DNA of 64,000 nucleotides. It comes from Microbacterium esteraromaticum. Its GTDB lineage: Bacteria; Actinomycetota; Actinomycetes; Actinomycetales; Microbacteriaceae. Shown piece by piece: positions 11,994 to 44,223 of the stretch (positions within the stretch are counted from its first letter, which is position 1; the number at the start of each line of letters is the position of its first letter). The position numbers and the translations under genes were made by a program. Below the pieces are notes generated by a model. The model was given only the letters and a program-made list of their open reading frames with translations. It did not search any database and was not told where the DNA came from. The stretch covers positions 2,108,001 through 2,172,000 of the forward strand of contig NZ_JAFBBS010000001.1 in the NCBI RefSeq assembly GCF_016907315.1, written 5' to 3'.

Positions 11994-12053
11994 CCCCCGC
12001 TCACCATCACCCGGCAGGCGACGCTGCCTGCAATCCCTCAGAGAGGACCGGAA

Positions 12054-25127: not shown

Positions 25128-25336
25128 TATCCTGGAACGAGTCGGCTTCGGGCACCCGCTTCCCAGCGGTTTCTTCCGAGCAGCGCAAGCGCTCATTGTG
25201 AGCCCAGGGGCCGATGGTTCATAACCATCACATGAATGGCCCCGGCCGACGGATGCCCGGGTATGTCCCACGCGCGCTGATCTCTGTGCCCGCGGAAGGG
25301 ACGCTGTTCTCGTGTCAGAGACAGTCAGGAAACACC
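25128..25336 (+). promoter_or_regulatory. Promoter and structured leader of the DEAD-box helicase gene
   Basis: A -10-like TATCCT (25128-25133) would give a leader of about 200 nt. Within it, AGCGC-AA-GCGCT and GCTCA-TTG-TGAGC form consecutive small hairpins (about 25182-25205). GGGGCC (25207-25212) pairs with GGCCCC (25238-25243) around an inner ATGGTT-CAT-AACCAT hairpin (25214-25228). In-frame starts lie in the leader (25214 onwards) without a stop before 25337. Regulation of the helicase by leader folding is inferred. Confidence 0.5.
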
Positions 25337-27706
25337 ATGCCCAAGAATGGCAAGCCCAAGGGCGGACGCCCCTCGCGCAACTTCGAGCCGCGGTACGCGA
25401 AGAGCGGACCCTCGTTCCACGAGCGTCACGCCGGCGGACGCCCCTCGCGTGACAGCGATCGTCGGGATGCCGGCGACCGCCGCTCGTTCTCGTCGGATGC
25501 CCGTGCCGACCGCCGCCCCGGCAGCGTGAGCCCGAAGCACCGCGGCTACCGCGCGGCGGACGCCGAAGGCTCGGCACCCAAGGGTCGCTGGTCGGATGCG
25601 CAGCGCGCAGGCCGCGACGAGGCCCGTTCGATCCGCAACCGCGCCGAGTCGGGTCGTCGCGAGGCGCCGCACCACCGCAACGACCGCGACGACCGCCAGG
25701 GCGGCCGCGGCTTCGACCGCAACGACCGGTTCGACCGGGACTCGCGTCCGGCGCGGGACGACCGGTTCGGCCGGGACTCGCGTCCGGCGCGGGACGACCG
25801 CTTCGGGCGCGATGGGCGCCCCGCACGGGATGACCGTGGTGGCTACGGCCGCAATGACCGGTTCGATCGCGATGCCCGTCCGGCCCGCAACGACCGGTTC
25901 GACCGCACCGAGCGCCCCGCCCGTGACGATCGCCGAGGCGGCTTCGACCGCACCGAGCGCCCTGCCCGTGACGATCGCCGAGGCGGCTTTGACCGCAACG
26001 AGCGCCCGGCTCGTGACGACCGTGGTGGTTACGGCCGCAGCGACCGGTTCGATCGCGATGCCCGTCCGGCTCGCGATGCCCGTCCGGCCCGCAACGACCG
26101 GTTCGATCGCGATGCCCGTCCGGCTCGCGACGACCGTGGTGGTTACGGCCGCAACGACCGCTTCGATCGTGACGCTCGTCCGGCTCGCGACGACCGCGGT
26201 GGCTACACGCGCAACGACCGCTTCGATCGTGACGCTCGTCCGGCGCGCGGCGACCGTTTCGATCGTGACTCGCGTCCTGCTCGCGACGACCGCCGCAGTG
26301 GCACCGAGCGCCCGCGCTTCGACCGCGCGGAGCGCCCGCGCTTCGACCGCGATGCGCGTCCCGCGCGTCAGAACCGCGACGACCGTCCGAACCGCAGCGA
26401 CTGGAACGCCACGTCGACCGCCAAGGCGCGCGACGAGCAGGCCGACGTCGTGCACGAGCGGCTCGAGGCAGAGGCCGTGCAGGCCACTGAGGTCGCGGAT
26501 GTGACCTTCGGCGACCTCGGCATCGGATCGAACATCGTCGAGATCCTGAAGAACATGGGCGCTGAGACGCCCTTCCCGATCCAGGCAGCGACGATCCCCA
26601 GCATCCTGCAGGGACGCGACGTGCTCGGCCGGGGCCGCACCGGCTCGGGCAAGACGATCGCGTTCGGCGCGCCCCTGGTCGAGAGCATCCTGCTGTCGCA
26701 GAAGGGCAAGCGCCGCGAGTTCGGCCGCAAGCCACGCGCGATCATCCTCGCCCCCACCCGCGAGCTGGCCCTGCAGATCGACCGCACTGTTCAGCCGATC
26801 GCGCGCAGCGTCGGACTGTTCACCACGCAGATCTACGGCGGCGTGCCCCAGGCGCGTCAGGTGGGCGCGCTGAACAAGGGCGTCGACATCATCATCGGCA
26901 CGCCCGGTCGCATCGAAGACCTCATCGAGCAGCGCAAGCTCGATCTCTCCGAGGTGCGCATCGCCGTGCTCGACGAGGCCGACCACATGGCAGAGCTCGG
27001 CTTCGCCGAGCCGGTGCAGCGCATCCTGCGCAAGACCGGCACGGCCCTCGAAGACGGAGCGACCAGCCAGAAGCTGCTGTTCTCGGCGACCCTCGACCGC
27101 GAGGTCGCCGCGATCGTCGACGAGTTCCTGATCGACCCGGCCGTCTACGAGGTCGCGGGCGAAGACCAGGACTCGAGCACCATCGACCACCGGGTGCTCG
27201 TGATCGAGCACCGTGACAAGGCCGATGTGCTCACCTCGCTCGTCGACCGCGATGGTCAGACGCTGGTCTTCGCGCGCACCCGCGCCTACGCCGAGATGCT
27301 CGCCGAGCAGTTCGAAGACGCCGGCATCGCCGCGGTCTCGCTGCACGGTGACCTCAACCAGGCCAAGCGCACGCGCAACCTGCAGAAGCTGACCGCAGGC
27401 AAGGTGCAGGTGCTCGTCGCCACCGATGTCGCCGCCCGTGGCATCCACGTCGACGACATCGACCTGGTCGTGCAGGCCGACGCTCCCGACGAGTACAAGA
27501 CGTACCTGCACCGCGCCGGCCGCACCGGCCGTGCCGGCCGCTCGGGCCGAGTCGTCACGCTGATCACCCGTCAGCGTCGCCGCCGCATGGAGGACCTGCT
27601 GGGTCGCGCCGAGATCGACGCGCCGTTCGAGCAGGCGGCTCCCGGCGACGACGTGATCGAGGAGATCACGGGCCGCATGCCGAGTGAGGCCGAACTCACC
27701 GCCTGA
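25337..27706 (+). CDS. DEAD-box RNA helicase with long repetitive N-terminus
   Basis: 789 residues. The N-terminal half (about 1-380) is highly charged and disordered; about 115-355 are repeats built on FDRDARPARDD with RGGYGRN inserts, encoded by repetitive DNA. The helicase core follows: Q motif near 400, Walker A GRGRTGSGKT (about 430), LDEADHMAELGF (about 544), SAT (about 582) and HRAGRTGRAGR (about 725). Typical DEAD proteins are 400-550 residues, so the extension is the oddity; Arg/Gly-rich arms bind RNA and favour condensates. ATG 25337 has AGGAAA upstream; an in-frame start at 25214 is possible but the intervening DNA looks like leader. Confidence 0.93.
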   Translation: MPKNGKPKGGRPSRNFEPRYAKSGPSFHERHAGGRPSRDSDRRDAGDRRSFSSDARADRRPGSVSPKHRGYRAADAEGSAPKGRWSDAQRAGRDEARSIRNRAESGRREAPHHRNDRDDRQGGRGFDRNDRFDRDSRPARDDRFGRDSRPARDDRFGRDGRPARDDRGGYGRNDRFDRDARPARNDRFDRTERPARDDRRGGFDRTERPARDDRRGGFDRNERPARDDRGGYGRSDRFDRDARPARDARPARNDRFDRDARPARDDRGGYGRNDRFDRDARPARDDRGGYTRNDRFDRDARPARGDRFDRDSRPARDDRRSGTERPRFDRAERPRFDRDARPARQNRDDRPNRSDWNATSTAKARDEQADVVHERLEAEAVQATEVADVTFGDLGIGSNIVEILKNMGAETPFPIQAATIPSILQGRDVLGRGRTGSGKTIAFGAPLVESILLSQKGKRREFGRKPRAIILAPTRELALQIDRTVQPIARSVGLFTTQIYGGVPQARQVGALNKGVDIIIGTPGRIEDLIEQRKLDLSEVRIAVLDEADHMAELGFAEPVQRILRKTGTALEDGATSQKLLFSATLDREVAAIVDEFLIDPAVYEVAGEDQDSSTIDHRVLVIEHRDKADVLTSLVDRDGQTLVFARTRAYAEMLAEQFEDAGIAAVSLHGDLNQAKRTRNLQKLTAGKVQVLVATDVAARGIHVDDIDLVVQADAPDEYKTYLHRAGRTGRAGRSGRVVTLITRQRRRRMEDLLGRAEIDAPFEQAAPGDDVIEEITGRMPSEAELTA
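25720..26376 (+). repeat. In-frame degenerate tandem repeats in the helicase gene
   Basis: About 650 bp of head-to-tail units of roughly 36-66 bp, sharing GACCGSTTCGAYCGYGAYGC and GTCCGGCNCGCGACGACCG. Several blocks are identical over more than 40 bp. All units keep the reading frame and encode Arg/Asp-rich repeats. The identity suggests frequent recombination and probable strain-to-strain length variation. Confidence 0.85.
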
Positions 27707-29079: not shown

Positions 29080-29185
29080 GCAACGATTAGAACATAAGAG
29101 CGAACGCCGGGCAATGGCACGAGATCGATGTTCGCACATCAGGGGAACACTCGCGGAAGCTCTTGACTCGCCAGATCGTTCATGA

Positions 29186-29219
29186 GAACGTTTACAGCGA
29201 CGGTGGGAACGTTTACAGC
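29186..29219 (+). promoter_or_regulatory. Tandem LacI-type sites before the ribosyl-like operon
   Basis: The 13-mer GAACGTTTACAGC occurs twice in direct orientation (29186-29198 and 29207-29219), exactly 21 bp apart or two helical turns. The AACGTT core and TTTACA flank resemble LacI-family operators. The copies end 17 bp before the LacI gene start, so the operon's own repressor is the likely ligand. TTGACT at 29163-29168 may be a -35 box. Confidence 0.65.
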
Positions 29220-29235
29220 ACTCAAGGGAGAGTCC

Positions 29236-30285
29236 ATGCCCCGAGCAACGATCACACAGGTCGCCGCACGAGCAGGCGTGTCGGTGGCCTCGGCCTCGCG
29301 CGCGCTCAACGGGCAGATCGCCAGCGCCGAGACCATCGCCAAGGTCGAGAAGGCCGCCGCCGAGCTCGGCTATGTCGCCGACGCGACGGCCCAGTCGCTG
29401 AAACGAGGGCGAACCTTCCAGCTCGCGTACGCGGTCGCCGACATCGGCAACCCCGTCTACGTCGAGATGATGACCGCCATCCAGAAGGTCATCTCGGCAT
29501 CCGGATACCGCCTGATCGTCTCTTCGACCGGCGACGCGTCGTCGTCGGTCGACGTCGTGCGCGACCTCAGCCGCGGCTACGTCGACGGCCTCATCATCTC
29601 GCCGCTGCGCGTCACGAAGCAGCTGCTCGACGCCCTGGCCGCCGTGCCTGTGCCGGTCGTCGTACTCGGTCGGGTGCCGGGGGATGCCGGGTTCGACACC
29701 GTGCGTGCAGACTCGCTCACCGCCATGCGGCAGGTCGTCGACCACCTCGCCGAGAACGCGCATCGCGACCTGGCGTTCATCAACGGTCCCGTCGACACGA
29801 CGCCCGGTGCCTTCCGCCGCGACGGCTTCACCGCCGCGATCGCCGCGCACCCCGAGCTGCGCGCGCAGAGCGTCGTAGCTGCCGACTTCACGATCGCCGC
29901 CGGCTACGAGGCGGCGCTGCCGCTGCTCGGCGGCGACGACCGACCGCAGGCCGTGATCGCCGCGAACGACCTCATCGGCGTCGGGGTGCTGCGCGCCGCC
30001 GAAGACCTCGGGCTGTCGGTTCCCCGCGACCTCGCCGTCACCGGCATCGACGACACCGAGCTCGCCACCGTCATGCGCCCGGGGCTGACCAGCGTCGACA
30101 TGGGCGCAGCTGAGCGCGGTCGCGTCGCCGCCGAGCTGCTTCTCGCCCGCATCGCCGACGGCGAGCGGCCCACTCAGACCGTCGCTGTCGCCCCTCGTCT
30201 CGTCGTGCGCGGATCGACCGTCGAGAACACGGCCCGCGCGGGCATCCCGCTCGCCCCCGTCGATCTCGGGAGGGCAGCCGGATGA
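29236..30285 (+). CDS. LacI family transcriptional regulator
   Basis: 349 residues. The helix-turn-helix TITQVAARAGVSVASASRAL with hinge is followed by the sugar-binding-type effector domain (FQLAYAVADIGNPVYVEMM, AVIAANDLIGVGVLRAAEDL, LAVTGIDDTELAT). ATG 29236 has AAGGGAG upstream; an earlier in-frame ATG (29182) would cover the operator repeats and is rejected. It is the first gene of the operon ending at 40999 and overlaps the first permease start by 4 bp, so it likely regulates the whole pathway with its substrate as inducer. Confidence 0.9.
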   Translation: MPRATITQVAARAGVSVASASRALNGQIASAETIAKVEKAAAELGYVADATAQSLKRGRTFQLAYAVADIGNPVYVEMMTAIQKVISASGYRLIVSSTGDASSSVDVVRDLSRGYVDGLIISPLRVTKQLLDALAAVPVPVVVLGRVPGDAGFDTVRADSLTAMRQVVDHLAENAHRDLAFINGPVDTTPGAFRRDGFTAAIAAHPELRAQSVVAADFTIAAGYEAALPLLGGDDRPQAVIAANDLIGVGVLRAAEDLGLSVPRDLAVTGIDDTELATVMRPGLTSVDMGAAERGRVAAELLLARIADGERPTQTVAVAPRLVVRGSTVENTARAGIPLAPVDLGRAAG

Positions 30286-31223
30286 GCATCACCGCAGAGA
30301 AGCGCGCGAAGGCTCCGCACAAGGTGCGCCAGATCGGCGCGCGCACTCGCGCGCAGCGCAAGGAGGCGATCGCGCTCGTCATCCCCGCACTGCTGCCGAT
30401 CATCATCTTCTCGGTGATCCCGCTGGTGAGCGGCGTCGCGATCGGCTTCACCGACGCCACGCTCAAGCGCAACGCCGAGATCAGCTTCAACGGGGTCGAG
30501 AACTACATCGACCTCGCCGGCAATCAGCGGTTCTGGGGCTCGTTCGGCATCGGACTCGTCTGGTCGGCATCGGTCGCGCTGCTGACGCTCGTCTGCGCCA
30601 TGTGCCTCGCTCTGCTGCTCAACAGCAACCTGCGCCTGAAGGGGCTCACCCGCGTGCTCGCTCTCATCCCGTGGGCGATGCCGCCCGTCGTGATCGCGAT
30701 CGTGTGGCGCATGATCTACAACCCGAACTCGGGTCCGCTCAACGGAATGCTCAGCTGGTTCGGCATCCCGGGCGTCAACTGGCTCGGCGACTTCTCGACC
30801 GCGCTGCCCGCGGTCATCGTCGTGGGCGTCTGGTCGGGCATCCCGCAGACGACGGTGCTGCTGCTCGCCGGAATGCAGGCGATCTCGGCCGAGCAGCACG
30901 AGGCGGCGGCCGTCGACGGCGCCGGCGTGTTCCGCCGCTTCTGGCACGTCACGCTCCCGGCGCTGCGTCCCGTGATCTTCGCCGTCACCTCGCTCGACTT
31001 CATCTGGCAGTTCAACTCGTTCGGCCTCATCTACGTGCTCACCGAGGGCGGACCAGGCGGGCAGACCATGATCCCGCCCCTGTTCACCTACCTCGAGGCG
31101 TTCCGCAACCGCGAGATCGGTGCGGCGTCGGCGATGGGCAACGTCCTCGTGGTCGCGATCCTGATCATCCTCTCGCTGTACCTGATCAACCAGTTCCGCC
31201 AGAACAAGGGGGTGCGCGCATGA
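30282..31223 (+). CDS. Sugar ABC transporter permease, MalF type
   Basis: A 313-residue carbohydrate importer permease with six membrane segments and the EAA loop EAAAVDGAGVFRRFWHVTLP. ATG 30282 overlaps the LacI stop. It forms the channel with the next gene. As for the first importer of this window, the operon has no ATPase gene, so a shared MsmK/MsmX-type ATPase is expected elsewhere. Confidence 0.92.
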   Translation: MSITAEKRAKAPHKVRQIGARTRAQRKEAIALVIPALLPIIIFSVIPLVSGVAIGFTDATLKRNAEISFNGVENYIDLAGNQRFWGSFGIGLVWSASVALLTLVCAMCLALLLNSNLRLKGLTRVLALIPWAMPPVVIAIVWRMIYNPNSGPLNGMLSWFGIPGVNWLGDFSTALPAVIVVGVWSGIPQTTVLLLAGMQAISAEQHEAAAVDGAGVFRRFWHVTLPALRPVIFAVTSLDFIWQFNSFGLIYVLTEGGPGGQTMIPPLFTYLEAFRNREIGAASAMGNVLVVAILIILSLYLINQFRQNKGVRA

Positions 31224-32059
31224 CCGCCAGACGCCCCTGGTACGCGACCGTCCTGATGTACGCGGCGCTGGCGTTCTTCCTCGCCTTCCTCGGCTTCCCG
31301 CTGGTGTGGCTCGTGTCGGCATCGTTCAAGTCGTCGCAGGAGCTCAACTCGCTCGCGGTGAACCTCATCCCCGCGCAGTGGGACTTCTCGAACTACGCCA
31401 GCGCGCTCGAGCGTCAGAACCTCATCCCCGCGGCGATGAACTCGCTGCTCGTGGCAGTGGCGACCATGATCATCACCGTCCTGCTGTCGATGCCGATGGC
31501 CTACGCCCTCGCCCGCCTGCAGGGACGGCTGCGCGCCGCCGGCACCATCTGGATCCTCACGAGCCAGGTCTTCCCGAGCATCCTGATCATCATCCCGCTG
31601 TTCCTGCTGCTGCGATCGATCAGCCTCAACGACACCCTCCTCGGGCTCATCCTCGTGTACGTCACCTTCACCATGCCGTTCACCCTGTGGATGCTGCAGG
31701 GGTACGTCGCCGCCATCCCCGTCGAGCTCGAAGAGGCTGCCGAGATGGACGGTGCGAACAGGATCACCATCCTGCGCCGGGTCGTGCTGCCACTGCTCGC
31801 GCCGGGACTCGTCGCGACAGCGATGTTCACCTTCGTATCAGCGTGGAACGAGTTCTTCCTCGCCCTCGTGCTGCTGCAGAGCCCGGAGCTGTACACCCTG
31901 CCCATCGCCCTGCGCTCCTTCCTGGGCGCCGAGGGGCAGACGCAGCTCGGCCCGCTCGCCGCAGGCGCGGTGCTCGCGACGATCCCGTCGCTCATCATCT
32001 TCGGCATCCTCCAGAAGAAGCTCACCGGCGGCATGCTCGCCGGTGCCGTCAAGGGCTGA
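31220..32059 (+). CDS. Sugar ABC transporter permease, MalG type
   Basis: A 279-residue partner permease with six segments, the EAA loop LEEAAEMDGANRITILRRV, and the usual terminal QKKLTGGMLAGAVKG. The start is the ATG overlapping the previous stop (31220-31223); the frame is open further upstream, but there it is only a shadow of the first permease. Confidence 0.92.
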   Translation: MTARRPWYATVLMYAALAFFLAFLGFPLVWLVSASFKSSQELNSLAVNLIPAQWDFSNYASALERQNLIPAAMNSLLVAVATMIITVLLSMPMAYALARLQGRLRAAGTIWILTSQVFPSILIIIPLFLLLRSISLNDTLLGLILVYVTFTMPFTLWMLQGYVAAIPVELEEAAEMDGANRITILRRVVLPLLAPGLVATAMFTFVSAWNEFFLALVLLQSPELYTLPIALRSFLGAEGQTQLGPLAAGAVLATIPSLIIFGILQKKLTGGMLAGAVKG

Positions 32060-32104
32060 ACCCCTCCACCACCAGAACCACCGCATCACTGAAAGGCGAT
32101 CACC

Positions 32105-33400
32105 ATGAAGAGAATCCGAGGCATCGGCGCCATCGCACTCGCCGGCGTCGCAGCGCTGGCGCTCACGTCATGCACCCAGGGAAGCGCGACGCGCGGCTCG
32201 GGAGACGGGGAGGACGGCGCCGTCACCCTGCAGTTCCAGTCGCTGTCGGACCAGCCCACCACCCAGGCGGCGATCAAGAAGATCGTCGACGGCTGGAACA
32301 GCGAGAATCCCGACGTGCAGGTCGAGATCATCCAGGCCGGGTGGGACGGCACCTACGACAAGCTGATCACGCAGTTCACCGGCGGAACTGCTCCCGACAT
32401 CATCCACTTCGAGGCGAGCTCGATCGTCTCGTTCGCGGCGGACGGGTACCTCGCCGACCTGAGCGAGTACATCGACCCCGACCTGAAGTCGGACATCTCG
32501 GAGGGCATTTGGGACTCGGTGACGGTGGGCGACGAGATCATCGCCTATCCGTCGACGCTGCAGTCGTACATGGCATTCGCGAACGCCGATCTGCTCGAGC
32601 AGGCCGGCGTGGAGATCCCCACAGGGGACACCATGACGTGGGATGAGCTCGCCGAGATCGCGCGCGCGACCACCACGCCCGAGCACAAGGGCCTCGGATG
32701 GGGCCTCGCTTCGCCGACCGCGACGATGATGAGCCTCGCGCTCGGCTTCGACGGTGGCTACTTCTCGGGCGAGGGCGATGACGCGAAGATCGAGGTCGGC
32801 GACGATGAGCTGGCCGTGCCCGAGCGCATCCATGAGATGGCCTACGGCGACAAGTCACTCGACCTGACGTCGCTCACGCAGTCGGGCTCGGACGTCCTCG
32901 CATCGTTCTACGGCGGCAAGGTCGCGATGACCGTGCAGGGATCGTTCCAGGTGACCAACATCGCCAAGGACGCCCCCGAGGGCTTCAACTGGGTGGCGCT
33001 GCCCCCGATCGAGGGCTCGGCGGGCGCGCTGCAGGCCGCCAACCCGCAGACCTACTCGGTGAACGTCGACTCCGAGCACGTCGAGGAGTCTGCGGAGTTC
33101 CTGAACTACTTCATGGGCGCCGACAACCTCGCCGAGATCGCCTACGCCGACGCGCTGATCCCGTCGTCGGGCGAGGCCCGCTCGGCGCTCGAGAAGAAGG
33201 CCGCCGACAACCCGGCATGGACGCAGGTGCTCGCATCCGGCGAGGGTCTCGAGGGTCCGCCGTTCCTCAAGGCCGACAAGTACACGGAGTGGAAGGACAC
33301 CATCGCGACGCCGGCCTTCCAGCAGTACCTGGCCGACAAGATCAGCAAGGAGCAGCTGGCGACCCAGCTCTCCGACGGCTGGGCCGACATCGCAGGCTGA
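32105..33400 (+). CDS. Sugar-binding lipoprotein of ABC importer
   Basis: 431 residues. The lipoprotein signal ends at the lipobox LTSC with Cys23. The mature protein has the normal MalE/UgpB-like size and motifs (ILQ-type domain 1 with YDKLITQFTGGTAPDIIHFE, later GGKVAMTVQGSFQV). It catches the substrate of the operon outside the membrane. AAAGGCGAT precedes ATG 32105. The stop codon lies inside the first unit of a 15-bp tandem repeat. Confidence 0.92.
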   Translation: MKRIRGIGAIALAGVAALALTSCTQGSATRGSGDGEDGAVTLQFQSLSDQPTTQAAIKKIVDGWNSENPDVQVEIIQAGWDGTYDKLITQFTGGTAPDIIHFEASSIVSFAADGYLADLSEYIDPDLKSDISEGIWDSVTVGDEIIAYPSTLQSYMAFANADLLEQAGVEIPTGDTMTWDELAEIARATTTPEHKGLGWGLASPTATMMSLALGFDGGYFSGEGDDAKIEVGDDELAVPERIHEMAYGDKSLDLTSLTQSGSDVLASFYGGKVAMTVQGSFQVTNIAKDAPEGFNWVALPPIEGSAGALQAANPQTYSVNVDSEHVEESAEFLNYFMGADNLAEIAYADALIPSSGEARSALEKKAADNPAWTQVLASGEGLEGPPFLKADKYTEWKDTIATPAFQQYLADKISKEQLATQLSDGWADIAG

Positions 33401-33453
33401 GCGCCGGCAGGCTGAGCGCCGGCGGGCTGAGCGCCGGCGCGCTGAACGCCGCC
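33394..33453 (+). repeat. Four 15-bp tandem repeats spanning the stop codon
   Basis: Units at 33394, 33409, 33424 and 33439 share RGGCTGAGCGCCGGC, the last with changes. The first unit contains the TGA of the binding-protein gene (33398-33400). Because 15 is a multiple of three, the other units place TGA codons in the same frame at 33413, 33428 and 33443, giving four serial stops. Confidence 0.85.
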
Positions 33454-33481
33454 GGCTGCATGCCGGCGGCGGGAGGCAGAA

Positions 33482-33516
33482 CGGGGTGAGACGGGCATGG
33501 CGCCCGTCTCACCCCG
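33482..33516 (+). terminator. Strong intra-operon hairpin
   Basis: A perfect 15-bp stem (14-mers GGGGTGAGACGGGC at 33483-33496 and GCCCGTCTCACCCC at 33502-33515, plus one flanking C-G pair) with a 5-base loop. There is no T-run. It lies between the abundant binding protein and the enzyme genes, so it may lower downstream expression or protect the upstream mRNA. Confidence 0.7.
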
Positions 33517-33547
33517 GGCAGAAGACACACACGAGACGAGGAGTGGG

Positions 33548-34717
33548 ATGGACGTGCTGCAGGGCCGAGTGGCCGGAGTGCTTGCAGGAGCCGCCGTGGG
33601 CGATGCGCTCGGCGGAGCGACCGAGGGGTGGACCCCCGAGCAGATCGAGGAGCGGCACGGAGGTCGGGTCGAGGGCATCGTCGGACCGTTCCTCGACGAC
33701 TGGCGCACGGCTCGCCCGATCGCGCCGTACCACAAGGGCGACGGGCACGTCACGGACGACACCCTGATGACCCACGCCCTCATCGAGGTCTACGCCAAGC
33801 GGCGTCGTCACCTCGACGCGTTCGACGTCGCAGCCGACCTCGTGCCGCTGATGATCGGCGAGCGCCGGTGGATCCCCGAGCTCGAAGACCAGGCGCTCAT
33901 CCTGCAGCGGGTGTTCCTGGCCGAGAAGTGGATCGTCGCCAAGCTGCACTACGGCCACGCCGATCCCCGCGAGGCTGGCGTCGGCAACATCGTCAACTGC
34001 GGCGCCACCATGTACATGGCGCCGGTCGGGCTCGTGCACATCGGCGATCCCCACGGTGCCTACGCCGAGGCCATCGATCTCGCCGGCGCCCACCAGTCGT
34101 CGTACGGGCGTGAGGCGGCCGGCGTGTTCGCCGCGGCCGTGGCGGCGTCTGCCGCGCCCGGCGCGTCGGTGGCGGATGTGCGTGCGGCGGTGACCGAGGT
34201 CGCGCACGACGGCACGGCCGCGGCGATCGCCGCCGTTCTGGACGCCGTCGACGGGTTCGTCGCCGGCGGCGGGTCGGAGGATCCGCGTGAGCTGGGTCGC
34301 GTCATCCGCGCCGCCGTCAGGCCGTACGACACGGTCGGCGACCAGTACCGTGCACCGGCGATGGACGCCAGGCTGCCCTCGCGGACGAAGTCGATCGAGG
34401 AGCTGCCCGTCGCCCTCGGCTTCGTGGTCGCGCACGACGGCGACGCTCGCGCCGCCGTTCTCGATGCGGTGAACTACGGGCGCGACTCGGACTCCATCGC
34501 GACGATGGCCGGGGCCATCTGCGGCGGTCTGGGCGGGATCGATGCGATCCCCGCCGAATGGGTGCACGACGTGACCACCGCGAGCCGCCTCGACCTCGAG
34601 GGCGTGACGGCGGCGATGACCGAGGTCGTGCGCGACGTCGCCGCGGCGGATGCGGAGCGGGCGGCGCGACGCGCAGCGAGCCTGCGCGAGATGCTCGGCG
34701 CGGAGGCGACCGCGTGA
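33548..34717 (+). CDS. ADP-ribosylglycohydrolase family protein (first)
   Basis: A 389-residue all-alpha enzyme of the ARH/DraG family, which hydrolyses alpha-linked ribosyl bonds with two Mg ions. The metal ligands are visible: GDALGG (about 18-23), DDTLMTH (about 70-76) and the C-terminal GRDSDSIATMAG (about 310-321, equivalent to DTDTIA). The protein is complete, not regulatory. Its place beside a sugar importer and a kinase argues against protein de-ADP-ribosylation and for a catabolic role on an imported ribosyl-like conjugate. ATG 33548 has GAGGAG (33537-33542); the frame reaches further upstream but through the hairpin. Confidence 0.9.
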   Translation: MDVLQGRVAGVLAGAAVGDALGGATEGWTPEQIEERHGGRVEGIVGPFLDDWRTARPIAPYHKGDGHVTDDTLMTHALIEVYAKRRRHLDAFDVAADLVPLMIGERRWIPELEDQALILQRVFLAEKWIVAKLHYGHADPREAGVGNIVNCGATMYMAPVGLVHIGDPHGAYAEAIDLAGAHQSSYGREAAGVFAAAVAASAAPGASVADVRAAVTEVAHDGTAAAIAAVLDAVDGFVAGGGSEDPRELGRVIRAAVRPYDTVGDQYRAPAMDARLPSRTKSIEELPVALGFVVAHDGDARAAVLDAVNYGRDSDSIATMAGAICGGLGGIDAIPAEWVHDVTTASRLDLEGVTAAMTEVVRDVAAADAERAARRAASLREMLGAEATA

Positions 34718-36078
34718 GACTGACCTGGGCCCAGCCAGAAGACCTCGTTCCGGCGGAGTTCGCCGCCCTGCGCGAGCAGGGCGTCGCGGAGTCGGAGCTG
34801 ACGCCGATCGAGCAGCGATGGGCGTCAGCGGGCGGCTCGACGGTGCTCGCGCCGTCGGGCGCCAGCACGACGCCGGCCAGCGCTGAGCTGCGCGCACTCG
34901 CCCGCGCCGTGCTCGACGAGCTGCATGACCTGCAGCGGCCGAGCGACGACGAGCCCGACGAATGGGACGCCATCGCGGCGCTGCTGCCCGACGCCCCCGC
35001 ACTGCCCACGACGACCGCGCTCGACCGGATGCGCGGGGCGTGGGCCGGGCGAGCGGCCGGATGCCTGCTCGGCAAGCCCGTCGAGAAGATCCCCCGCGAG
35101 GGGATCGAGCAGATCGCGCGGGCCACGGGCAACTGGCCGATCCGCACCTACTTCACCGCCCAGGGCCTGCCGGCGGAGATCGCCGAGCGGTGGCCGTGGA
35201 ACCGCCGCTCGGCGCCCACATCGCTCGTCGAGAACATCGACGGGATGCCCGAAGACGACGACCTCAACTTCCCGATCCTCGCCCTCGACCTGCTCGAGCG
35301 GCACGGCGGGCGGCTGACGACCGACGACATCGCTCAGGCGTGGCTCGCCTCCCTCCCCGCCGGACGCGTGTTCACGGCCGAGCGGGCCGCATACCGGAAC
35401 ATCCTCGATGCGAGGCCCGTGCCCGAGACCGCAACCCACTTGAACCCGTTCCGCGAGTGGATCGGCGCTCTGATCCGCGCCGACGTGCATGGCTGGGCCC
35501 ACCCCGGCGACGTCAGGGCGGCGGCGCGCTCGGCATGGCTCGACGCGCGCCTGAGTCACACCCGCAACGGCATCTACGGCGAGATCTGGGTCGCCGCGCT
35601 GTGTGCGGCCTCGATCGTCGTCGAGACGGCCGACGATGCGCTGGACGCAGCAGATGCGGCAGTGCCACCGGCATCCCGGCTCGCCGCGGCGGTGCGTCTC
35701 GGGCGCGAGACCGGGCGGGCGCTCTCATCGGGAGCTCTGACCCTCGATGCGGCTCTGGACGCCCTGCACGACGAGTTCGCCGGCATGCACTGGGTGCACA
35801 CGCTCAACAACGCCGCGCTCATCGCCTGCGCGGTGCAGGCGCACGGTGCCGACTTCGGCCAGGCGATCGCCCTGGCGGTGGCCGGCGGGTGGGACACCGA
35901 CTCCGCCGGTGCGACCGTCGGCTCGGTGGTCGGCGGGCTGATCGGCGCCGACGCGATCGACGCGGCCTGGACGGCCCCGCTGCGCGACAGCATCGCGACA
36001 TCGATGCCGGGCGGTGCCGAGCGGTCGATCCGCGAGCTCGCCGAGCGCACCCTGCGCCTGTCGGAGGCGGGGTCGTGA
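34714..36078 (+). CDS. ADP-ribosylglycohydrolase family protein (second)
   Basis: 454 residues, a distant relative of the preceding enzyme. An extra N-terminal region (about 1-105) precedes the ARH core, which starts at MRGAWAGRAAGCLLGKPVEK. Metal-binding motifs are EDDDLNFPILALDL (about 179-192) and GGWDTDSAGATVGSVVGG (about 390-407). GTG 34714 overlaps the previous stop by 4 bp. The extension may bind a second subunit or part of the substrate. Two non-identical ARH enzymes in one operon suggest two bonds, or two substrate forms, are cleaved. Confidence 0.9.
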   Translation: MRLTWAQPEDLVPAEFAALREQGVAESELTPIEQRWASAGGSTVLAPSGASTTPASAELRALARAVLDELHDLQRPSDDEPDEWDAIAALLPDAPALPTTTALDRMRGAWAGRAAGCLLGKPVEKIPREGIEQIARATGNWPIRTYFTAQGLPAEIAERWPWNRRSAPTSLVENIDGMPEDDDLNFPILALDLLERHGGRLTTDDIAQAWLASLPAGRVFTAERAAYRNILDARPVPETATHLNPFREWIGALIRADVHGWAHPGDVRAAARSAWLDARLSHTRNGIYGEIWVAALCAASIVVETADDALDAADAAVPPASRLAAAVRLGRETGRALSSGALTLDAALDALHDEFAGMHWVHTLNNAALIACAVQAHGADFGQAIALAVAGGWDTDSAGATVGSVVGGLIGADAIDAAWTAPLRDSIATSMPGGAERSIRELAERTLRLSEAGS

Positions 36079-37004
36079 GCGTCGTCATCGTCGGTAGCGT
36101 CAATCAGGACGTGGTGGCCCGCGTCCAGCGCGTACCCATGCCTGGCGAGACCGTTCTGGCAAGCTCGCTCACCCGCTCCGGAGGCGGCAAGGGCGCCAAC
36201 CAGGCGGTCGCCGCGCGACGTGCGGGCGGTGCGGAGGTCGCGTTCGTGGGAGCTGTCGGAACGGATTCCGACGGCGCCTCGCTGCGTGCCGCTCTCGAGC
36301 GCGACGGCATTGACGTGTCGGGACTCGCCGAGATGGAGGGCCCGAGCGGCACCGCGCTGATCGCGGTCGACGAGCACGCCGAGAACATCATCGTCGTCGT
36401 GCCGGGGGCCAACGCCGCCCTCGAGCGTCTGACAGATGGTCAGCGCGCGGTCGTCGCGCGCTCGCGGGTGCTGCTGACCCAGCTCGAGGTGCCCGTGTCG
36501 CTCGTGCAGGATGCCGCGGGCGCTCGCCCCGTCGGCGCCTGGCATGTGCTCAACGCCGCTCCGTCGGCGCCGTTCGCCGGCGCGGCGGATGCCCTGTTCG
36601 CCGAGATCGACGTGCTCGTCGTCAACGAGCACGAGGCGCTCGAGATCGCGGGCGCGGCCGACCTCGATGGCGCCGTGCTCTCGCTGTCGGCGCGCGTGCG
36701 CGCGCTCGTCGTCACTCTGGGCGCGAAGGGGTCTCTGATCGTCCACGACGGCGATCGCGCCGAAGTCGCCGCAGTACCCGCAGATGCCGTCGACACCACC
36801 GGTGCCGGCGACACGTTCTGCGGCGTGCTGGCGGCACGCCTGGAGGCATCGGGCCGCACCCCCGACGACGCCGACGTGGCGCTGCTGGCCGATGCGGCCA
36901 GGTGGGGGGCGGCAGCGTCCGCCATCTCCGTCACCCGACCAGGGGCACAGGACGCCGTGCCGACCGCCACCGAGGTGGCGCAGCTGCGCCGAGAGAGCGA
37001 GTGA
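36075..37004 (+). CDS. rbsK: Ribokinase-type PfkB sugar kinase
   Basis: 309 residues. It shows the ribokinase N-terminal signature (GSVNQDVVARVQRVPMPGET, then GGGKGANQAVAARRAGG) and the PfkB C-terminal motif with catalytic Asp in DTTGAGDTFCGVLAARL. It phosphorylates ribose or a similar pentose at O5 using ATP. Following two ARH enzymes, it would trap the sugar they release and pass it to the pentose phosphate pathway. GTG 36075 overlaps the upstream stop. Other PfkB substrates are possible, so the symbol denotes the family. Confidence 0.85.
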   Translation: MSVVIVGSVNQDVVARVQRVPMPGETVLASSLTRSGGGKGANQAVAARRAGGAEVAFVGAVGTDSDGASLRAALERDGIDVSGLAEMEGPSGTALIAVDEHAENIIVVVPGANAALERLTDGQRAVVARSRVLLTQLEVPVSLVQDAAGARPVGAWHVLNAAPSAPFAGAADALFAEIDVLVVNEHEALEIAGAADLDGAVLSLSARVRALVVTLGAKGSLIVHDGDRAEVAAVPADAVDTTGAGDTFCGVLAARLEASGRTPDDADVALLADAARWGAAASAISVTRPGAQDAVPTATEVAQLRRESE

Positions 37005-37008
37005 GACC

Positions 37009-38967
37009 GTGAGCAGTGGATTCGACCCCCTCCAGCCCCGGGAGCTGGACCGCCCGACGAGCGTGCCTCTGCGCGACATCGACGGCGTCCTGCCCGACGT
37101 GGCTGCGGGCGCCGATGCGCTGACCTTGGACGACGGCAAGATCTTCGCCGCCCCTTCCGATCCCGCGCAGCTCGACGACTGGCGGGCGCAGCTCACCGCC
37201 TGGCGGGACGGCGCCCGCCGCAGGCACGGTGCTCCCAGCCGGTACGACGACCCGCAGTCGCGCTGGGCGTCCCGCTGCTTCACCGTGGCCCAGGTGTGGC
37301 TGTGGGACGAGCTGTTCTTCGACTTCGACGCGCAGAGGTTCACGCCCGAGCGGTTCGCGGCCGACGCCCGCGAGCGCTTCGGCGGCCTCGACGGGGTCGT
37401 GCTCTGGCACGCGTACCCCGTGATCGGCATCGACGACCGCAACCAGTGGGACTTCTATGACGTGCCTGGCCTCGCCGACGCGGCGGACGCCCTGCACGCG
37501 CTGGGGATCGCGGTCTTCGTCGACTACAACCCGTGGGACACGGGCACGCGGCGCGGGCGCGACGACGCCACCGAGCTCGCCGCCACGGTGCGGCGCCTGG
37601 GCGCCGACGGCATCTTCCTCGACACGCTCAAGAAGGCCGACCCCGAGATGGTCGCGGCTCTCGATGCCGCGCGCCCCGGCATCGGACTCGAGGGCGAGTC
37701 GAAGCTCGCGACCGAGCGCATCGCAGACCACACGCTCTCGTGGGCGCAGTGGTTCGCCGACTCGGAGGTGCCAGGCGTGCTGCGCGCGCACTGGTTCGAG
37801 CGCCGGCACATGCAGCATCACATCCGCCGCTGGCACCGCGACCACTCCGAAGAGCTGCGCTCCGCCTGGCTCAACGGCGTGGGGGTGATGGTGTGGGAGG
37901 TCGTCTTCGGCGTCTGGGTCGGCTGGAACGACCGCGACGCGGCGACGCTGCGGCGCATGCTGCCGGTGCAGCGACGACTGCATCGCTGGCTGGTCGATGG
38001 CGAATGGACGCCCCTCGCCGTGCATCGCGCCCCTGTGTTCGGGTCGACGTTCGAGCTCGACGGGTCGACCCTGCTGCTGCTCGCCAACACCTCCGATGCA
38101 GACGTGTCGTACCGCCCGGAGGGCACGGGCTGGCAGCCGCTGCACGCCGGCGACTCAGCCGACGCGATCGTCGTGCCCGCGCACGGCGTCGCCGCGGCGA
38201 TGCGGGTCGCAGGAGACGAGCCGGCCGAGCTGGCCGAGGTGCGTGCGGCGCTGGCCGACGAGGTGGCGGTGGCACAGGCATCCTTCCCCCACCGTCGCGC
38301 ACGCCGGCTGTCGCCCCCGCGTGCCGCCTCCGCCGCCGCAGCCACCGGCGTCGTGGAGCGCGCGGCGGCATGCACCGTCATCGTGCCCCCGGGCGAGCAC
38401 GTGCTGACCGTCCGCTATCGCGCGCGAGAGACCGGCATGTACGAGGGCGCTCCCTATGTCGACGAGTGGAAGCCCCTTCCGCCGCGCCTGCACGATCAGC
38501 GCACGCTCGAGCGCGTGGCGAAGCTGGCTGAGGCGGTACGGGTCGCATCCGCAGAGGTCAGCGAGGCCGAGTACGCGCTCTACCTCGACGCGATCGGCGA
38601 ACGCGCCGGATCGCGTGACCCTGAGCGCCCTGCGACGGGCGTCACGTTCGCTCGGGCCCGCGACTACGCGGCGTGGGTGGGTGGGCGGCTGCCGACGGAG
38701 GACGAGTGGCAGCTTGCCGCCCGGATGCCCGGGTTCGAGCGCCGCACCCCCGAGGTCTGGAACTGGACCGAGTCGGAGCACTCTGACGGGCGCACCCGCT
38801 TCGTGATGCTCAAGGGCGGAAGTGCGCACGAGAGCGTCGGATCGGACTGGTACGTCGACGGCGGCGTGCGCGAGCCGGAGTTCGCGCTGAAGCTGCTGCT
38901 GCCCGGGCTGGGGCAGGACGCCTCGCCATCGATCGGATTCCGCGTGTGCTGGGAGGATGAGGCATGA
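37009..38967 (+). CDS. Glycosidase-like barrel fused to SUMF1-like domain
   Basis: 652 residues, cytoplasmic. About 60-400 look like a TIM-barrel glycosidase (DGVVLWHAYPVIGIDDRNQ, FVDYNPWDTGTRRGRD, GIFLDTLKKAD with a possible catalytic Asp, GLEGESKL with a possible Glu), followed by a beta-rich region to about 490. The C-terminus (about 500-652) is a formylglycine-generating-enzyme-like SUMF1 fold (GGRLPTEDEWQLAARM, NWTESE, KGGSAHE, GFRVCW). It lacks the paired active-site cysteines of true FGE, so it is not a sulfatase activator. I know no characterised protein with this order. GTG 37009 starts 5 bases after the kinase stop. Confidence 0.75.
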   Translation: MSSGFDPLQPRELDRPTSVPLRDIDGVLPDVAAGADALTLDDGKIFAAPSDPAQLDDWRAQLTAWRDGARRRHGAPSRYDDPQSRWASRCFTVAQVWLWDELFFDFDAQRFTPERFAADARERFGGLDGVVLWHAYPVIGIDDRNQWDFYDVPGLADAADALHALGIAVFVDYNPWDTGTRRGRDDATELAATVRRLGADGIFLDTLKKADPEMVAALDAARPGIGLEGESKLATERIADHTLSWAQWFADSEVPGVLRAHWFERRHMQHHIRRWHRDHSEELRSAWLNGVGVMVWEVVFGVWVGWNDRDAATLRRMLPVQRRLHRWLVDGEWTPLAVHRAPVFGSTFELDGSTLLLLANTSDADVSYRPEGTGWQPLHAGDSADAIVVPAHGVAAAMRVAGDEPAELAEVRAALADEVAVAQASFPHRRARRLSPPRAASAAAATGVVERAAACTVIVPPGEHVLTVRYRARETGMYEGAPYVDEWKPLPPRLHDQRTLERVAKLAEAVRVASAEVSEAEYALYLDAIGERAGSRDPERPATGVTFARARDYAAWVGGRLPTEDEWQLAARMPGFERRTPEVWNWTESEHSDGRTRFVMLKGGSAHESVGSDWYVDGGVREPEFALKLLLPGLGQDASPSIGFRVCWEDEA

Positions 38968-40154
38968 CGACGCCGCTGACCGGACTGCGGGTGATCGACG
39001 CGTCCACCCTCTTCGCCGGCCCCATGGCCGCCATGCATCTGGGAGACATGGGCGCCGAGGTGATCAAGGTCGAGCATCCGACCCGACCCGATCCCGCCCG
39101 AGGCCATGGCCCCAGCAAGGACGGACAGAACCTGTGGTGGAAGACCCTCGGTCGCAACAAGCGCACGGTCGCGATCGACCTGCACACCGCCGGCGGGCGT
39201 GAGGCGTTCCTCAGACTCGCCAGCACGGCGGATGTCGTGATCGAGAACTTCCGGCCGGGCACCCTCGAGCGCTGGGGTCTCGACTACGAGACCCTGTCGG
39301 CGCAGAACCCGGGCCTGGTGCTGGCACGCGTGACCGGGTTCGGCCAGATCGGACCGTATCGCTCGCGCCCCGGTTTCGGAACCCTGGCTGAGGCGATGAG
39401 CGGCTTCGCAGCGGCGACCGGAGAACCGGACGGCCCGCCCACGCTGCCCCCGTTCGGACTGGCCGACGGCATCGCATCGCTGGCGACCGCGTACGCGGTG
39501 ATGGTGGCCCTTCACTCGCGGGCGGCGTCGGGCGTCGGGCAGGTCGTCGACGTCGCGATCATCGAGCCGATCCTCGCGATGCTCGGTCCGCAGATCACCC
39601 GGTGGGACCAGCTGCAGACGGCGCAGCCGCGCACGGGCAATCGCTCCATGAACAACTCCCCGCGCAACGCGTACCGCACCGCTGAGGGGTCATGGGTCGC
39701 GGTCTCGGCGAGCGCGCTCTCGATCGCACAGCGCGTCGTGACGCTCGTCGGCCGGCCGGACCTCGCAGATGAGCCGTGGTTCGCGACGGGAGCGTCGCGC
39801 GCCGAGCACGCCGACGAGATCGACGAGGCCGTCGGGTCGTGGATCGCCAGGCACACGCGCGACGAGGTGATCTCGGCCTTCGAGGAGGCGCAGGCGGCCG
39901 TCGCCCCGGTATACGAACCGGCCGACATCGTCGCCGACCCCCAGTTCACCGCGCTCGGCACGATCCACCGCATCCATGACGCGGACCTGGGAGAGATGGC
40001 GATGCAGGGCCCGCTCTTCCGCCTCTCGCGAGATGAAGCCGACATCGCGTTCACCGGGCGCGCCCACGGTGCCGACACCGACGAGGTGCTCAGCGAGCTC
40101 GGCTTCGCCGACGAGGACATCGCCCGGCTGCGCGAGGACGGATCGGTCGCATGA
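38964..40154 (+). CDS. CaiB/BaiF (class III) CoA-transferase
   Basis: 396 residues. It transfers CoA between acyl-CoA and a free acid through an aspartyl-CoA-anhydride. Family motifs: LRVIDASTLFAGPMAAMHLGDMGAEVIKVE at the N-terminus (in pieces), VIENFRPGTLERWGLDY, GFGQIGPYRSRPGF, and the catalytic Asp168 in FGLADGIAS. It is complete. The ATG overlaps the previous stop, and its own stop overlaps a CitE-type lyase. The pair suggests that an acid from the substrate is activated (succinyl-CoA or acetyl-CoA as donor) and then cleaved. Confidence 0.92.
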   Translation: MTTPLTGLRVIDASTLFAGPMAAMHLGDMGAEVIKVEHPTRPDPARGHGPSKDGQNLWWKTLGRNKRTVAIDLHTAGGREAFLRLASTADVVIENFRPGTLERWGLDYETLSAQNPGLVLARVTGFGQIGPYRSRPGFGTLAEAMSGFAAATGEPDGPPTLPPFGLADGIASLATAYAVMVALHSRAASGVGQVVDVAIIEPILAMLGPQITRWDQLQTAQPRTGNRSMNNSPRNAYRTAEGSWVAVSASALSIAQRVVTLVGRPDLADEPWFATGASRAEHADEIDEAVGSWIARHTRDEVISAFEEAQAAVAPVYEPADIVADPQFTALGTIHRIHDADLGEMAMQGPLFRLSRDEADIAFTGRAHGADTDEVLSELGFADEDIARLREDGSVA

Positions 40155-40999
40155 GCCGGTTCGTCATGGTCGCGCTGTATGCGCCGGCCGATCGTCCCGA
40201 GCGGTTCGGCAAGGCGCTGGATGCCGGAGCGGACGCCGTCATCGTCGACCTCGAGGATGCCGTGTCGGCGTCGCGCAAGGGGGAAGCGCGCGGCGCGCTC
40301 GGCGCCTTCGCCGACGAGTGGAGCGCGCGCGGCGATTCTCGGCCGGCCGTGCAGGTGCGGGTGAACGCGATCGGCTCTCGCTGGCACGACGACGACCTGG
40401 ACGCGCTCCGCATGCTGCCCGCGGAGTTCGACGTGCGCCTGCCCAAGACGCAGTCGGCGGCAGACGTGCGGGCCGTGCGCGCAGCGCTTCCTGGCCGGCG
40501 CGTGCACGCGCTGCTCGAGACGCCGCTCGCCGTCGAGCGGGCGTACGAGATCGCGTCGTCCGGTGCGGCATCCATCGGCGCAGGAGAGGCCGACCTGCGG
40601 TCAGCCCTCGGCATCCCGGCGGGAACCGCAGGAGAGCCGGGGCTGGCCTACTCGCGCTCGCGGCTGGTGAACGCGGCGGCGGCAGCTGAGCTGCCGTCGC
40701 CGCTCATGGCGGTGTGGGCCGACGTCGTCGACCTCGACGGGCTGGAGCAGAGCTGCCGCACGGGGAAGAACCTCGGATACGCGGGACGCACCGTCGTGCA
40801 TCCGCGCCAGATCGCCGTGGTACGGCAGGTGTTCACCCCGACCACCGCCGAGGTCGAGCACGCGCAGCGGATCATCGACCGGGTCGCGTCCGCTGCCGCA
40901 GACGGCACCGGCGCGTTCGTTCTCGATGACGGCACGTTCATCGATGTCGCGATGGTGCGCGGGGCCGAGCGGATCATCGCAGCCGCCTCGAGACCCTGA
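40151..40999 (+). CDS. HpcH/HpaI aldolase / CitE-type lyase
   Basis: 282 residues of the CitE-like family, which reversibly cleaves malyl-CoA, citramalyl-CoA and related beta-hydroxyacyl-CoA esters into acetyl-CoA (or homologue) and a keto acid. Mg and substrate motifs: VIVDLEDAVSASRKGEAR, VRVNAIGSRWH, ALLETPLAVERAYE (Mg Glu) and GEADLRSALG (Mg Asp). The short length fits stand-alone CitE-like lyases, and no citrate lyase alpha or gamma subunits are present. The ATG overlaps the CoA-transferase stop. Last gene of the operon. Confidence 0.9.
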   Translation: MSRFVMVALYAPADRPERFGKALDAGADAVIVDLEDAVSASRKGEARGALGAFADEWSARGDSRPAVQVRVNAIGSRWHDDDLDALRMLPAEFDVRLPKTQSAADVRAVRAALPGRRVHALLETPLAVERAYEIASSGAASIGAGEADLRSALGIPAGTAGEPGLAYSRSRLVNAAAAAELPSPLMAVWADVVDLDGLEQSCRTGKNLGYAGRTVVHPRQIAVVRQVFTPTTAEVEHAQRIIDRVASAAADGTGAFVLDDGTFIDVAMVRGAERIIAAASRP

Positions 41000-41035
41000 G
41001 CGGTGTGATCCGCCCGTTTGGGGGACAATGGATCG

Positions 41036-43268: not shown

Positions 43269-43275
43269 CCGCCGT

Positions 43276-43334
43276 CGAGAGCACCACATGCCGACGCCGG
43301 CAGACGCCGTGCTCGACGGCACGTGGTGCTCTCG
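43276..43334. terminator. Bidirectional terminator
   Basis: A perfect 12-bp stem, CGAGAGCACCAC (43276-43287) with GTGGTGCTCTCG (43323-43334), plus an inner TGCCG/CGGCA, between convergent acyl-CoA dehydrogenase and SIP genes. Confidence 0.8.
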
Positions 43335-43337
43335 GCG

Positions 43338-44213: not shown

Positions 44214-44223
44214 GGGGTGCCTC

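Follow-up and report, generated by a model that had tools for sequence, protein, structure and literature searches.

What small molecule would a cell import and take apart with a LacI regulator, a sugar ABC importer, two ADP-ribosylglycohydrolase (ARH)-family hydrolases, a ribokinase-like kinase, a glycosidase-like fusion protein and a pair of CoA enzymes? These functions are encoded side by side in Microbacterium esteraromaticum, in the 64-kb stretch of DNA analysed here (the window). Its open reading frames include ten intact genes, all on the plus strand, between positions 29236 and 40999: a LacI-family regulator of 349 aa (29236..30285; PF13377 and PF00356 over cut-off), the ABC sugar permeases A (30282..31223; PF00528) and B (31220..32059; PF00528), a solute-binding lipoprotein of 431 aa (32105..33400; PF01547), the hydrolase ARH1 of 389 aa (33548..34717), a second, non-identical ARH-family hydrolase, ARH2, of 454 aa (34714..36078), a PfkB-family ribokinase-like kinase of 309 aa (36075..37004), a protein of 652 aa with a GTG start, predicted to combine a GH13-like barrel with an FGE/EgtB-like domain in one chain (37009..38967; GH/SUMF1), a class III (CaiB/BaiF) CoA-transferase of 396 aa (38964..40154; PF02515, 394 bits) and a CitE-like beta-hydroxyacyl-CoA lyase of 282 aa (40151..40999; PF03328). 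The Pfam names of the ten proteins are each supported above cut-off, with the exception of residues 1-533 of GH/SUMF1. None of the NCBIfam cut-offs shown was reached, those for ribokinase and RipC included, and no protein matched an oxidoreductase or hydratase family among the Pfam and NCBIfam profiles. Six of the nine junctions are 4-base ATGA/GTGA overlaps (ATGA between LacI and permease A and between the two permeases), and the remaining ones are gaps of 4 bp (PfkB/GH), 45 bp (permease/binding protein) and 147 bp (binding protein/ARH1). The preliminary description had read ten co-oriented genes with mostly overlapping junctions as a single unit, and it was right on both counts.

Judged by gene order in related genomes, the grouping is far beyond chance, and the ten genes are one unit that is gained and lost as a block: the nine-gene core was complete and in order at 70 of 80 related actinobacterial loci, and the close relative G296 has 59 bp where the window has positions 29098-41018 (11.9 kb absent). 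Conserved synteny of the enzyme genes with the sugar importer, a check set beforehand, was thereby found. The operon kinase was missing from 15 of the 70 complete loci and is therefore dispensable, and two locus variants carried two further ARHs instead of GH. The CaiB-CitE pair lay upstream of LacI in L159 and was absent, both genes together, from L079, L114 and L160, so that it is strongly linked to the unit but separable from it; its assignment to the operon holds in that the pair sits inside the block gained and lost whole. In a phylum-wide sample, the GH/SUMF1 protein (E <= 1e-60) was found in one of 396 genomes, the window's own. A VanY-type peptidase gene at 41018 and the acyl-CoA dehydrogenase gene that follows it were rejected as operon members, being present in the cassette-less genomes G296 and G106. 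Clustering of 389 flanking genes (at most three per side) gave as its biggest cluster an ABC ATPase at 11 loci, in varied places and on varied strands; the recurrent flanking gene with a fixed place was feruloyl-esterase-like. Smaller recurrent clusters (a dehydrogenase type, LacI and genus-level neighbours) were taken as members of large families. The flanking genes are annotated in part only, so further sugar-pathway neighbours may occur.

Upstream of LacI, on the plus strand at 29183..29217, lie two putative LacI-type operator-like sites, TGAGAACGTTTACA and TGGGAACGTTTACA. The hexamer AACGTT occurs at 29187 and 29208 and nowhere else in the window, and 62 of 72 related loci had it within about 270 bp upstream of LacI (63 of 73 counting the window; eight of the 80 loci, without usable LacI start or upstream DNA, were dropped), compared with a chance expectation of 0.025 per 270 bp. 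Upstream of LacI, 25 of the 72 loci had a perfect 14-base palindrome. The nearest NCBIfam models of the regulator were RbsR, PurR and CytR, all below cut-off. For the binding lipoprotein, the nearest solved chains were sugar-binding proteins of ABC importers, YesO first (70.5 bits). There is no ATPase gene for the importer in the operon, and the ATPase must therefore come from elsewhere.

Both ARHs exceed the curated PF03747 cut-off of 26.2 bits (ARH1, 156 bits; ARH2, 138 bits over residues 108-417, following an N-terminal extension of about 100 aa), and they are the only matches to this family in the single-contig genome of 3.24 Mb. Among aligned homologues, T69, D70, D71 and T72 of ARH1 were kept in 74 of 74 sequences and D313 and D315 in 73 of 74, as were, in all 74 sequences, E180, D181, D182 and D183 together with W393, D394, T395, D396 and S397 of ARH2 (76 ARH2 genes had been called, and three that fell below 75% of the query's length were excluded). 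We take these acidic motifs of the TDDT, EDDD and DTDS type to be metal-ligand-type motifs; the earlier statement that the ligand motifs are intact thus applies to both enzymes. Nucleoside-hydrolase genes lie near ARH2 relatives at L162 and L163 (by Pfam) and at L167 (by eye); a nearby nucleoside hydrolase would support riboside substrates. In an order-wide sample with ARH genes in 86 genomes, one ARH gene among the matches listed (G311) was within 10 kb of a nucleoside hydrolase, and because this linkage amounts to a single pair it was not used as main evidence.

The identity of the sugar is indicated by the kinase. Its residues N10, D12, G38, K39, N42, E138 and D246, each invariant in 59 of 59 kinases, correspond to the ribose contacts N14, D16, G42, K43, N46, E143 and D255 of E. 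coli RbsK, and the sugar that it handles is therefore probably ribose. The kinase scored 242 bits with the ribokinase model TIGR02152, compared with 73 bits for fructokinase, and missed the curated cut-off of 299.65, above which no gene was found in any of 16 genomes of the family. All eight tested operon genomes without the operon kinase had a ribokinase-like gene elsewhere (219-293 bits); in G043 and G115, which have the operon kinase, the next-best ribokinase match was merely a gene with an internal stop codon. The earlier idea of a ribokinase that traps ribose was thus strengthened as to the sugar but weakened as to the need for this particular gene. A PfkB ribose kinase has been reported from an unrelated locus (available part of PMC13432705).

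Residues 1-533 of GH/SUMF1 matched no Pfam family at E 0.01, the PF00128 alpha-amylase profile included. The predicted structure of the protein has a GH13-like barrel with a following beta domain and also an FGE-like fold, the barrel model coming from a 110-sequence alignment (replacing a first 12-sequence model; pLDDT 65). GH13 enzymes have a conserved Arg at position -2 relative to the nucleophile Asp of beta-4, an acid/base Glu at beta-5 and a second Asp after beta-7. With strand 201-204 counted as beta-4, this Arg is absent, F203, L204 and D205 being invariant in the 110 sequences. E228 in strand 226-229 and E230 just after it were invariant as well, and there is no Asp just after strand 268-271, which by count would be beta-7. 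FGE (SUMF1) has conserved active-site cysteines; in the 110 sequences, the FGE-like domain had no cysteine at invariant or 90%-conserved positions. What had been called a glycosidase/SUMF1 fusion is thus a two-part protein with a predicted GH13-like barrel, but with an FGE-like domain devoid of a conserved cysteine. The GH13 cyclic maltosyl-maltose hydrolase of Arthrobacter globiformis (6a0j) is only 12% identical to the operon protein, which differs from it in having neither a Pfam GH13 match nor the Arg before the beta-4 Asp and in being fused to the FGE-like domain. Among the best 120 of 2029 profile matches, nearly all full-length (many of the others may owe their match to the FGE-like part alone), fusions were predicted of ARH to GH/SUMF1 (P0049, P0078 and P0084) and of GH/SUMF1 to PfkB (P0068). 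Given the barrel, the pathway probably includes the cleavage of a further glycosidic bond.

In the CoA-transferase, D168, which we take to be the catalytic Asp of class III enzymes, was kept in 78 of 78 sequences. Its third-best solved relative was the succinate-hydroxymethylglutarate CoA-transferase 9br6 (165.5 bits), a distant one, and CaiB missed the NCBIfam cut-off for succinate-glutarate CoA-transferase (234.5 of 750 bits). In CitE, whose best solved chain was 8khl, R70, E123 and D148 were present in 76 of 76 sequences (one of 76 called genes was excluded as short and the window's added) and aligned with Arg64, Glu112 and Asp138 of Rv2498c, the (S)-citramalyl-CoA and (R)-HMG-CoA lyase of M. 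tuberculosis (6aq4). The Mg ligands and the substrate arginine formed by these residues (available part of PMC6689899) are thus shared with a distant enzyme (83 bits). CitE was much less conserved than CaiB (34-77% versus 64-92% identity to the window's protein), and the authors of the Rv2498c study consider bioinformatics alone unreliable for assigning functions in this lyase family (PMC6689899, same part). Since no oxidoreductase family is represented among the ten proteins, the acid probably reaches the cell preformed.

How this acid is attached is suggested by an accompanying gene. The feruloyl-esterase-like gene was found at 19 of the 80 loci: in 16 it was co-oriented with CitE and lay downstream of it, and elsewhere between GH and CaiB (L125, from Rugosimonospora), directly after GH (L114) or downstream on the opposite strand (L095). 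Weak matches of 49 bits in L053 and L113 were left out of the 19. The window's own operon has no esterase, nor had 61 of the 80 loci within the DNA examined, some stretches of which end near CitE. The recurrence of this gene suggests that the acid is linked to the sugar by an ester. A hydrophobic, signal-like N-terminal segment was present in 13 of the 19 esterases and missing in six (L083, L096, L107, L114, L125 and L128); the 13 are probably secreted, and with them the acid would be released extracellularly.

From what is seen in the sequence (the unit, its conservation, its presence or absence as a block, the intact active sites, the ribose-contact residues and the recurrent esterase) we infer the substrate, the order of cuts, the bond types and the acid as follows. 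We consider it slightly better than an even call that the LacI-controlled cassette imports and dismantles an acylated ribosyl-glycoside, with ribose passing to pentose phosphates and the acid being cleaved as a CoA thioester. The binding protein and the two permeases would import the acylated ribosyl-glycoside or a small oligosaccharide; the feruloyl-esterase-like enzyme, encoded in or next to the operon in some relatives, would free the acid; within the cell, the GH13-like/FGE-like protein would cut an additional glycosidic bond, and the two ARHs would set ribose free by cleaving furanosidic bonds, probably of alpha configuration. Ribose would be phosphorylated by the ribokinase-like kinase, or by another ribokinase in genomes that lack it, and enter the pentose phosphate pathway as ribose 5-phosphate. 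CaiB would convert the acid, a hydroxylated dicarboxylate (citramalate, 3-hydroxy-3-methylglutarate or malate), to its CoA thioester, which the CitE-like lyase would split into acetyl-CoA plus pyruvate, acetoacetate or glyoxylate as the keto acid. Compared with the catabolism of an acid-bearing ribosyl conjugate proposed in the preliminary description, which gene linkage, motifs and ribose contacts favour, this scheme adds a further glycosidic bond and an ester link and treats the kinase as dispensable.

Other readings account for parts of these data. The operon might degrade an alpha-glucan-type or other furanosyl oligosaccharide devoid of ribose, with the ARHs acting as glycosidases for fructose, arabinose or galactofuranose and the kinase being a relaxed PfkB. 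The GH13-like barrel, the resemblance of the binding protein to oligosaccharide-type sugar binders, the loci without the kinase and the ARH2 relatives (42-44% identity) that lie close to GH13-type (L162, L165) or GH36 (L168) genes would all fit, but the seven invariant ribose-contact residues and the clear preference of the kinase for the ribokinase over the fructokinase model make this rather unlikely. We regard it as less probable still that CaiB-CitE is a hitch-hiking acid-degradation pair of the itaconate/citramalate type, co-regulated with the riboside pathway and acting on a different molecule. RipC, the citramalyl-CoA lyase that follows a CoA-transferase and a hydratase in itaconate degradation (available part of PMC6689899), was the best-scoring model for CitE, although its NCBIfam cut-off was missed (148 of 375 bits), and the pair is displaced or absent at the four loci named above. 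The likeness to that route is confined to the CoA-transferase and the lyase, as the hydratase needed for itaconate is not among the ten genes and the operon joins the pair to sugar uptake and glycosidase genes; in addition, CaiB-CitE follows GH/SUMF1 in 70 of the 80 loci, and the esterase would point to sugar and acid being physically joined.

That the ARHs reverse protein ADP-ribosylation, the sugar genes being incidental, is highly improbable despite their PF03747 membership and intact acidic motifs. Both are tied to a sugar importer and LacI in 70 of the 80 loci, and as the only PF03747 proteins of the genome they are absent along with the cassette in G296. ARH1 fell far below the NCBIfam cut-offs for DraG and ADP-ribosylarginine hydrolase (Tri1) (40.5 of 337 and 40.4 of 490 bits) and ARH2 matched neither model, so that this role was rejected as the main one by context and by the missed equivalog cut-offs.

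Among the literature matches listed, no title or abstract start described this gene set, in agreement with the earlier view that the pathway is undescribed. The E. coli operon yegTUV comprises the nucleoside-symporter-family YegT, the ARH-family YegU and the putative sugar kinase YegV, and was linked by its authors to glycogen and ADP-glucose (available part of PMC10819704). It likewise combines an ARH-family protein, a sugar kinase and a transporter under one regulator, but it has a single ARH, another transporter type and a GntR-type regulator, and in that part of the source no counterpart of GH/SUMF1, CaiB or CitE is named.

More broadly, and tentatively, ARH-fold enzymes, known for removing ADP-ribosylation, could also be a wide class of intracellular nutritional ribosidases, working here with a new GH13-like/FGE-like family and CoA-dependent acid cleavage on a widespread but so far overlooked acylated ribosyl-glycoside of soils, some lineages using two further ARHs for GH. 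The cassette is compact and comes with its own regulator and binding protein, and these two could be used directly as bait for the substrate, which makes the question testable. If the proposal is true, ARH-family proteins would move from signalling into carbon nutrition, an uncharacterised glycoside-hydrolase-like family would be defined, and soil actinobacteria would be users of a natural compound made up of ribose, a second sugar and a dicarboxylic hydroxy acid.

The cassette comprises ten plus-strand genes (window 29236-40999) for a LacI regulator, permeases A and B, a solute-binding lipoprotein (SBP), two PF03747 (ADP-ribosylglycohydrolase-family) proteins (ARH1 and ARH2), a ribokinase-like kinase (PfkB), a predicted GH13-like barrel fused to an FGE-like domain (GH/SUMF1), a class III CoA-transferase (CaiB) and a beta-hydroxyacyl-CoA lyase-like protein (CitE). 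All ten genes of the block proposed in the preliminary description proved to be real, intact and co-oriented, and Pfam returned the names already given to them. ATGA/GTGA overlaps were found at six of the nine junctions. None of the ten proteins reached a cut-off among those listed by NCBIfam, and each is therefore a divergent member of its own family. The genome, a single 3.24-Mb contig, contains no PF03747 matches other than ARH1 and ARH2.

The cassette (window 29098-41018) is flanked by a radical-SAM gene on one side and a VanY-type peptidase gene on the other. The alignment of the congeneric genome G296 (locus L171) to the window ends at 29097 and resumes at 41019 with 59 bp in between, at 86% and 88% identity on the two sides, i.e. 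11.9 kb are absent, comprising the ten genes and the stretch upstream of LacI. The operon is likewise absent from G106 (L172), where the radical-SAM gene adjoins the VanY gene, and both relatives retain VanY (41018) and the subsequent acyl-CoA dehydrogenase gene. Since the flanking genes adjoin in these relatives, the limits of the cassette are the limits of the finding. It is nearly certain that the ten genes form one coherent unit. The same pair of genes, adjacent to each other, also precedes the operon in L058 and L123, which gives the site the appearance of a hot spot for insertions. A second stretch lacking a counterpart in G296 (window 43269-44232) holds a minus-strand gene, named by eye as siderophore-interacting-protein-like. 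Elsewhere, visual inspection picked out a helicase-like gene (25214-27706) whose N-terminal part holds a long series of near-repeats of the type DRNDRFDRDARPARD.

The GH/SUMF1 protein was matched in 54 of 299 genomes of the family at E 0.001, mostly via the FGE-like part alone. Strong matches (E ≤ 1e-117), some in several pieces, were confined to 17 genomes including the window's own; in the other 16, gene order is preserved over whatever part the contigs cover, with PfkB seen in seven and none seen in nine; two of the 16 are contig fragments. A GH/SUMF1 alignment scanned against 84,980 species genomes yielded 149 relatives, of which the best 80, all actinobacterial by title and partially overlapping with the 16, were fetched. 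By tblastn, LacI-A-B-SBP-ARH1-ARH2-GH-CaiB-CitE was complete and in order in 70 of these 80 loci (55 with PfkB, 15 without), counting L099, with genes in pieces, and L052, with CitE cut by a contig end. Among the remaining ten, contig ends truncate L055, L082, L095, L098 and L128; in L110, LacI falls at the edge of the fetched DNA, outside the distance limit, and an insertion of about 2.5 kb separates ARH1 from ARH2; L097 and L118 place LacI between ARH2 and GH; L079 lacks LacI, ARH1, CaiB and CitE, and L114 lacks CaiB and CitE. In a phylum-wide sample of 396 genomes, the window's own was the only one with the protein. The cassette is thus distributed over several families, yet sporadically. 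Across L049-L128, identity to the window's copy is much lower for CitE (34-77%) than for CaiB next to it (64-92%).

AACGTT was observed upstream of LacI, at a distance of up to about 270 bp, in 63 of the 73 sequences compared (the window plus 72 loci, with 8 of the 80 dropped), versus 0.025 expected. It centres a perfect 14-base palindrome in 25 of the 72 loci, the others having near-palindromes or less, and its copies at 29187 and 29208 are the only ones in the 64-kb window.

ARH2 orthologues also occur without GH/SUMF1. In L159 (same genus), CaiB-CitE precede LacI to ARH2, followed by two further ARH genes (11121-13108); L160 shares this layout without CaiB-CitE (extra genes at 11089-13097). 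Both operons thus encode four ARH proteins where other loci carry GH/SUMF1. ARH2 relatives with 37-46% identity sit in or near LacI/ABC/PfkB clusters, some accompanied by a nucleoside hydrolase (L162, L163 and, by eye, L167), a GH13-type gene (L162, L165) or a GH36 gene (L168). Because variants and relatives keep this company, ARH-fold proteins seem to have been recruited repeatedly into sugar uptake operons. Clusters L164 and L165 combine several ARH-family genes with LacI, ABC permeases and PfkB, L165 adding an alpha-amylase-family gene. Order-wide, PF03747 was found in 86 of 149 genomes, but a nucleoside hydrolase lay within 10 kb of a PF03747 gene once (G311) among the matches listed.

Among the best 120 of 2029 profile matches, three predicted GH/SUMF1 homologues (P0049, P0078, P0084) also bear an ARH domain and one (P0068) a PfkB domain; such predicted fusions tie ARH, GH and kinase to one pathway.

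A PF00756 esterase, nearest to ferulic acid esterases, is present in 19 of the 80 loci: it follows CitE on the same strand in 16 and lies downstream on the opposite strand in L095, between GH and CaiB in L125 and after GH in L114. A simple hydropathy scan, not a signal predictor, placed a hydrophobic, signal-like segment ahead of the match in 13 of the 19 (all except L083, L096, L107, L114, L125 and L128), and some long copies (L065, L067) carry a beta-propeller part. Other recurring flanking families have no fixed place, foremost an ABC ATPase (11 loci), which is the first same-strand gene downstream of CitE in L056 and L057. A secreted-looking protein begins 9 bp past CitE in L066 (13874-15139); its relatives are the first downstream gene in L069, L072, L077 and L086, all five loci being from Amycolatopsis, and a Pfam search with the L069 copy gave no match.

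That an acid is part of the imported compound is plausible, and the fixed place of the esterase makes it plausible that this acid would be ester-linked. The sugar is likely ribose. Overall, we lean slightly towards a cassette for importing an acylated ribosyl-glycoside and breaking it down.
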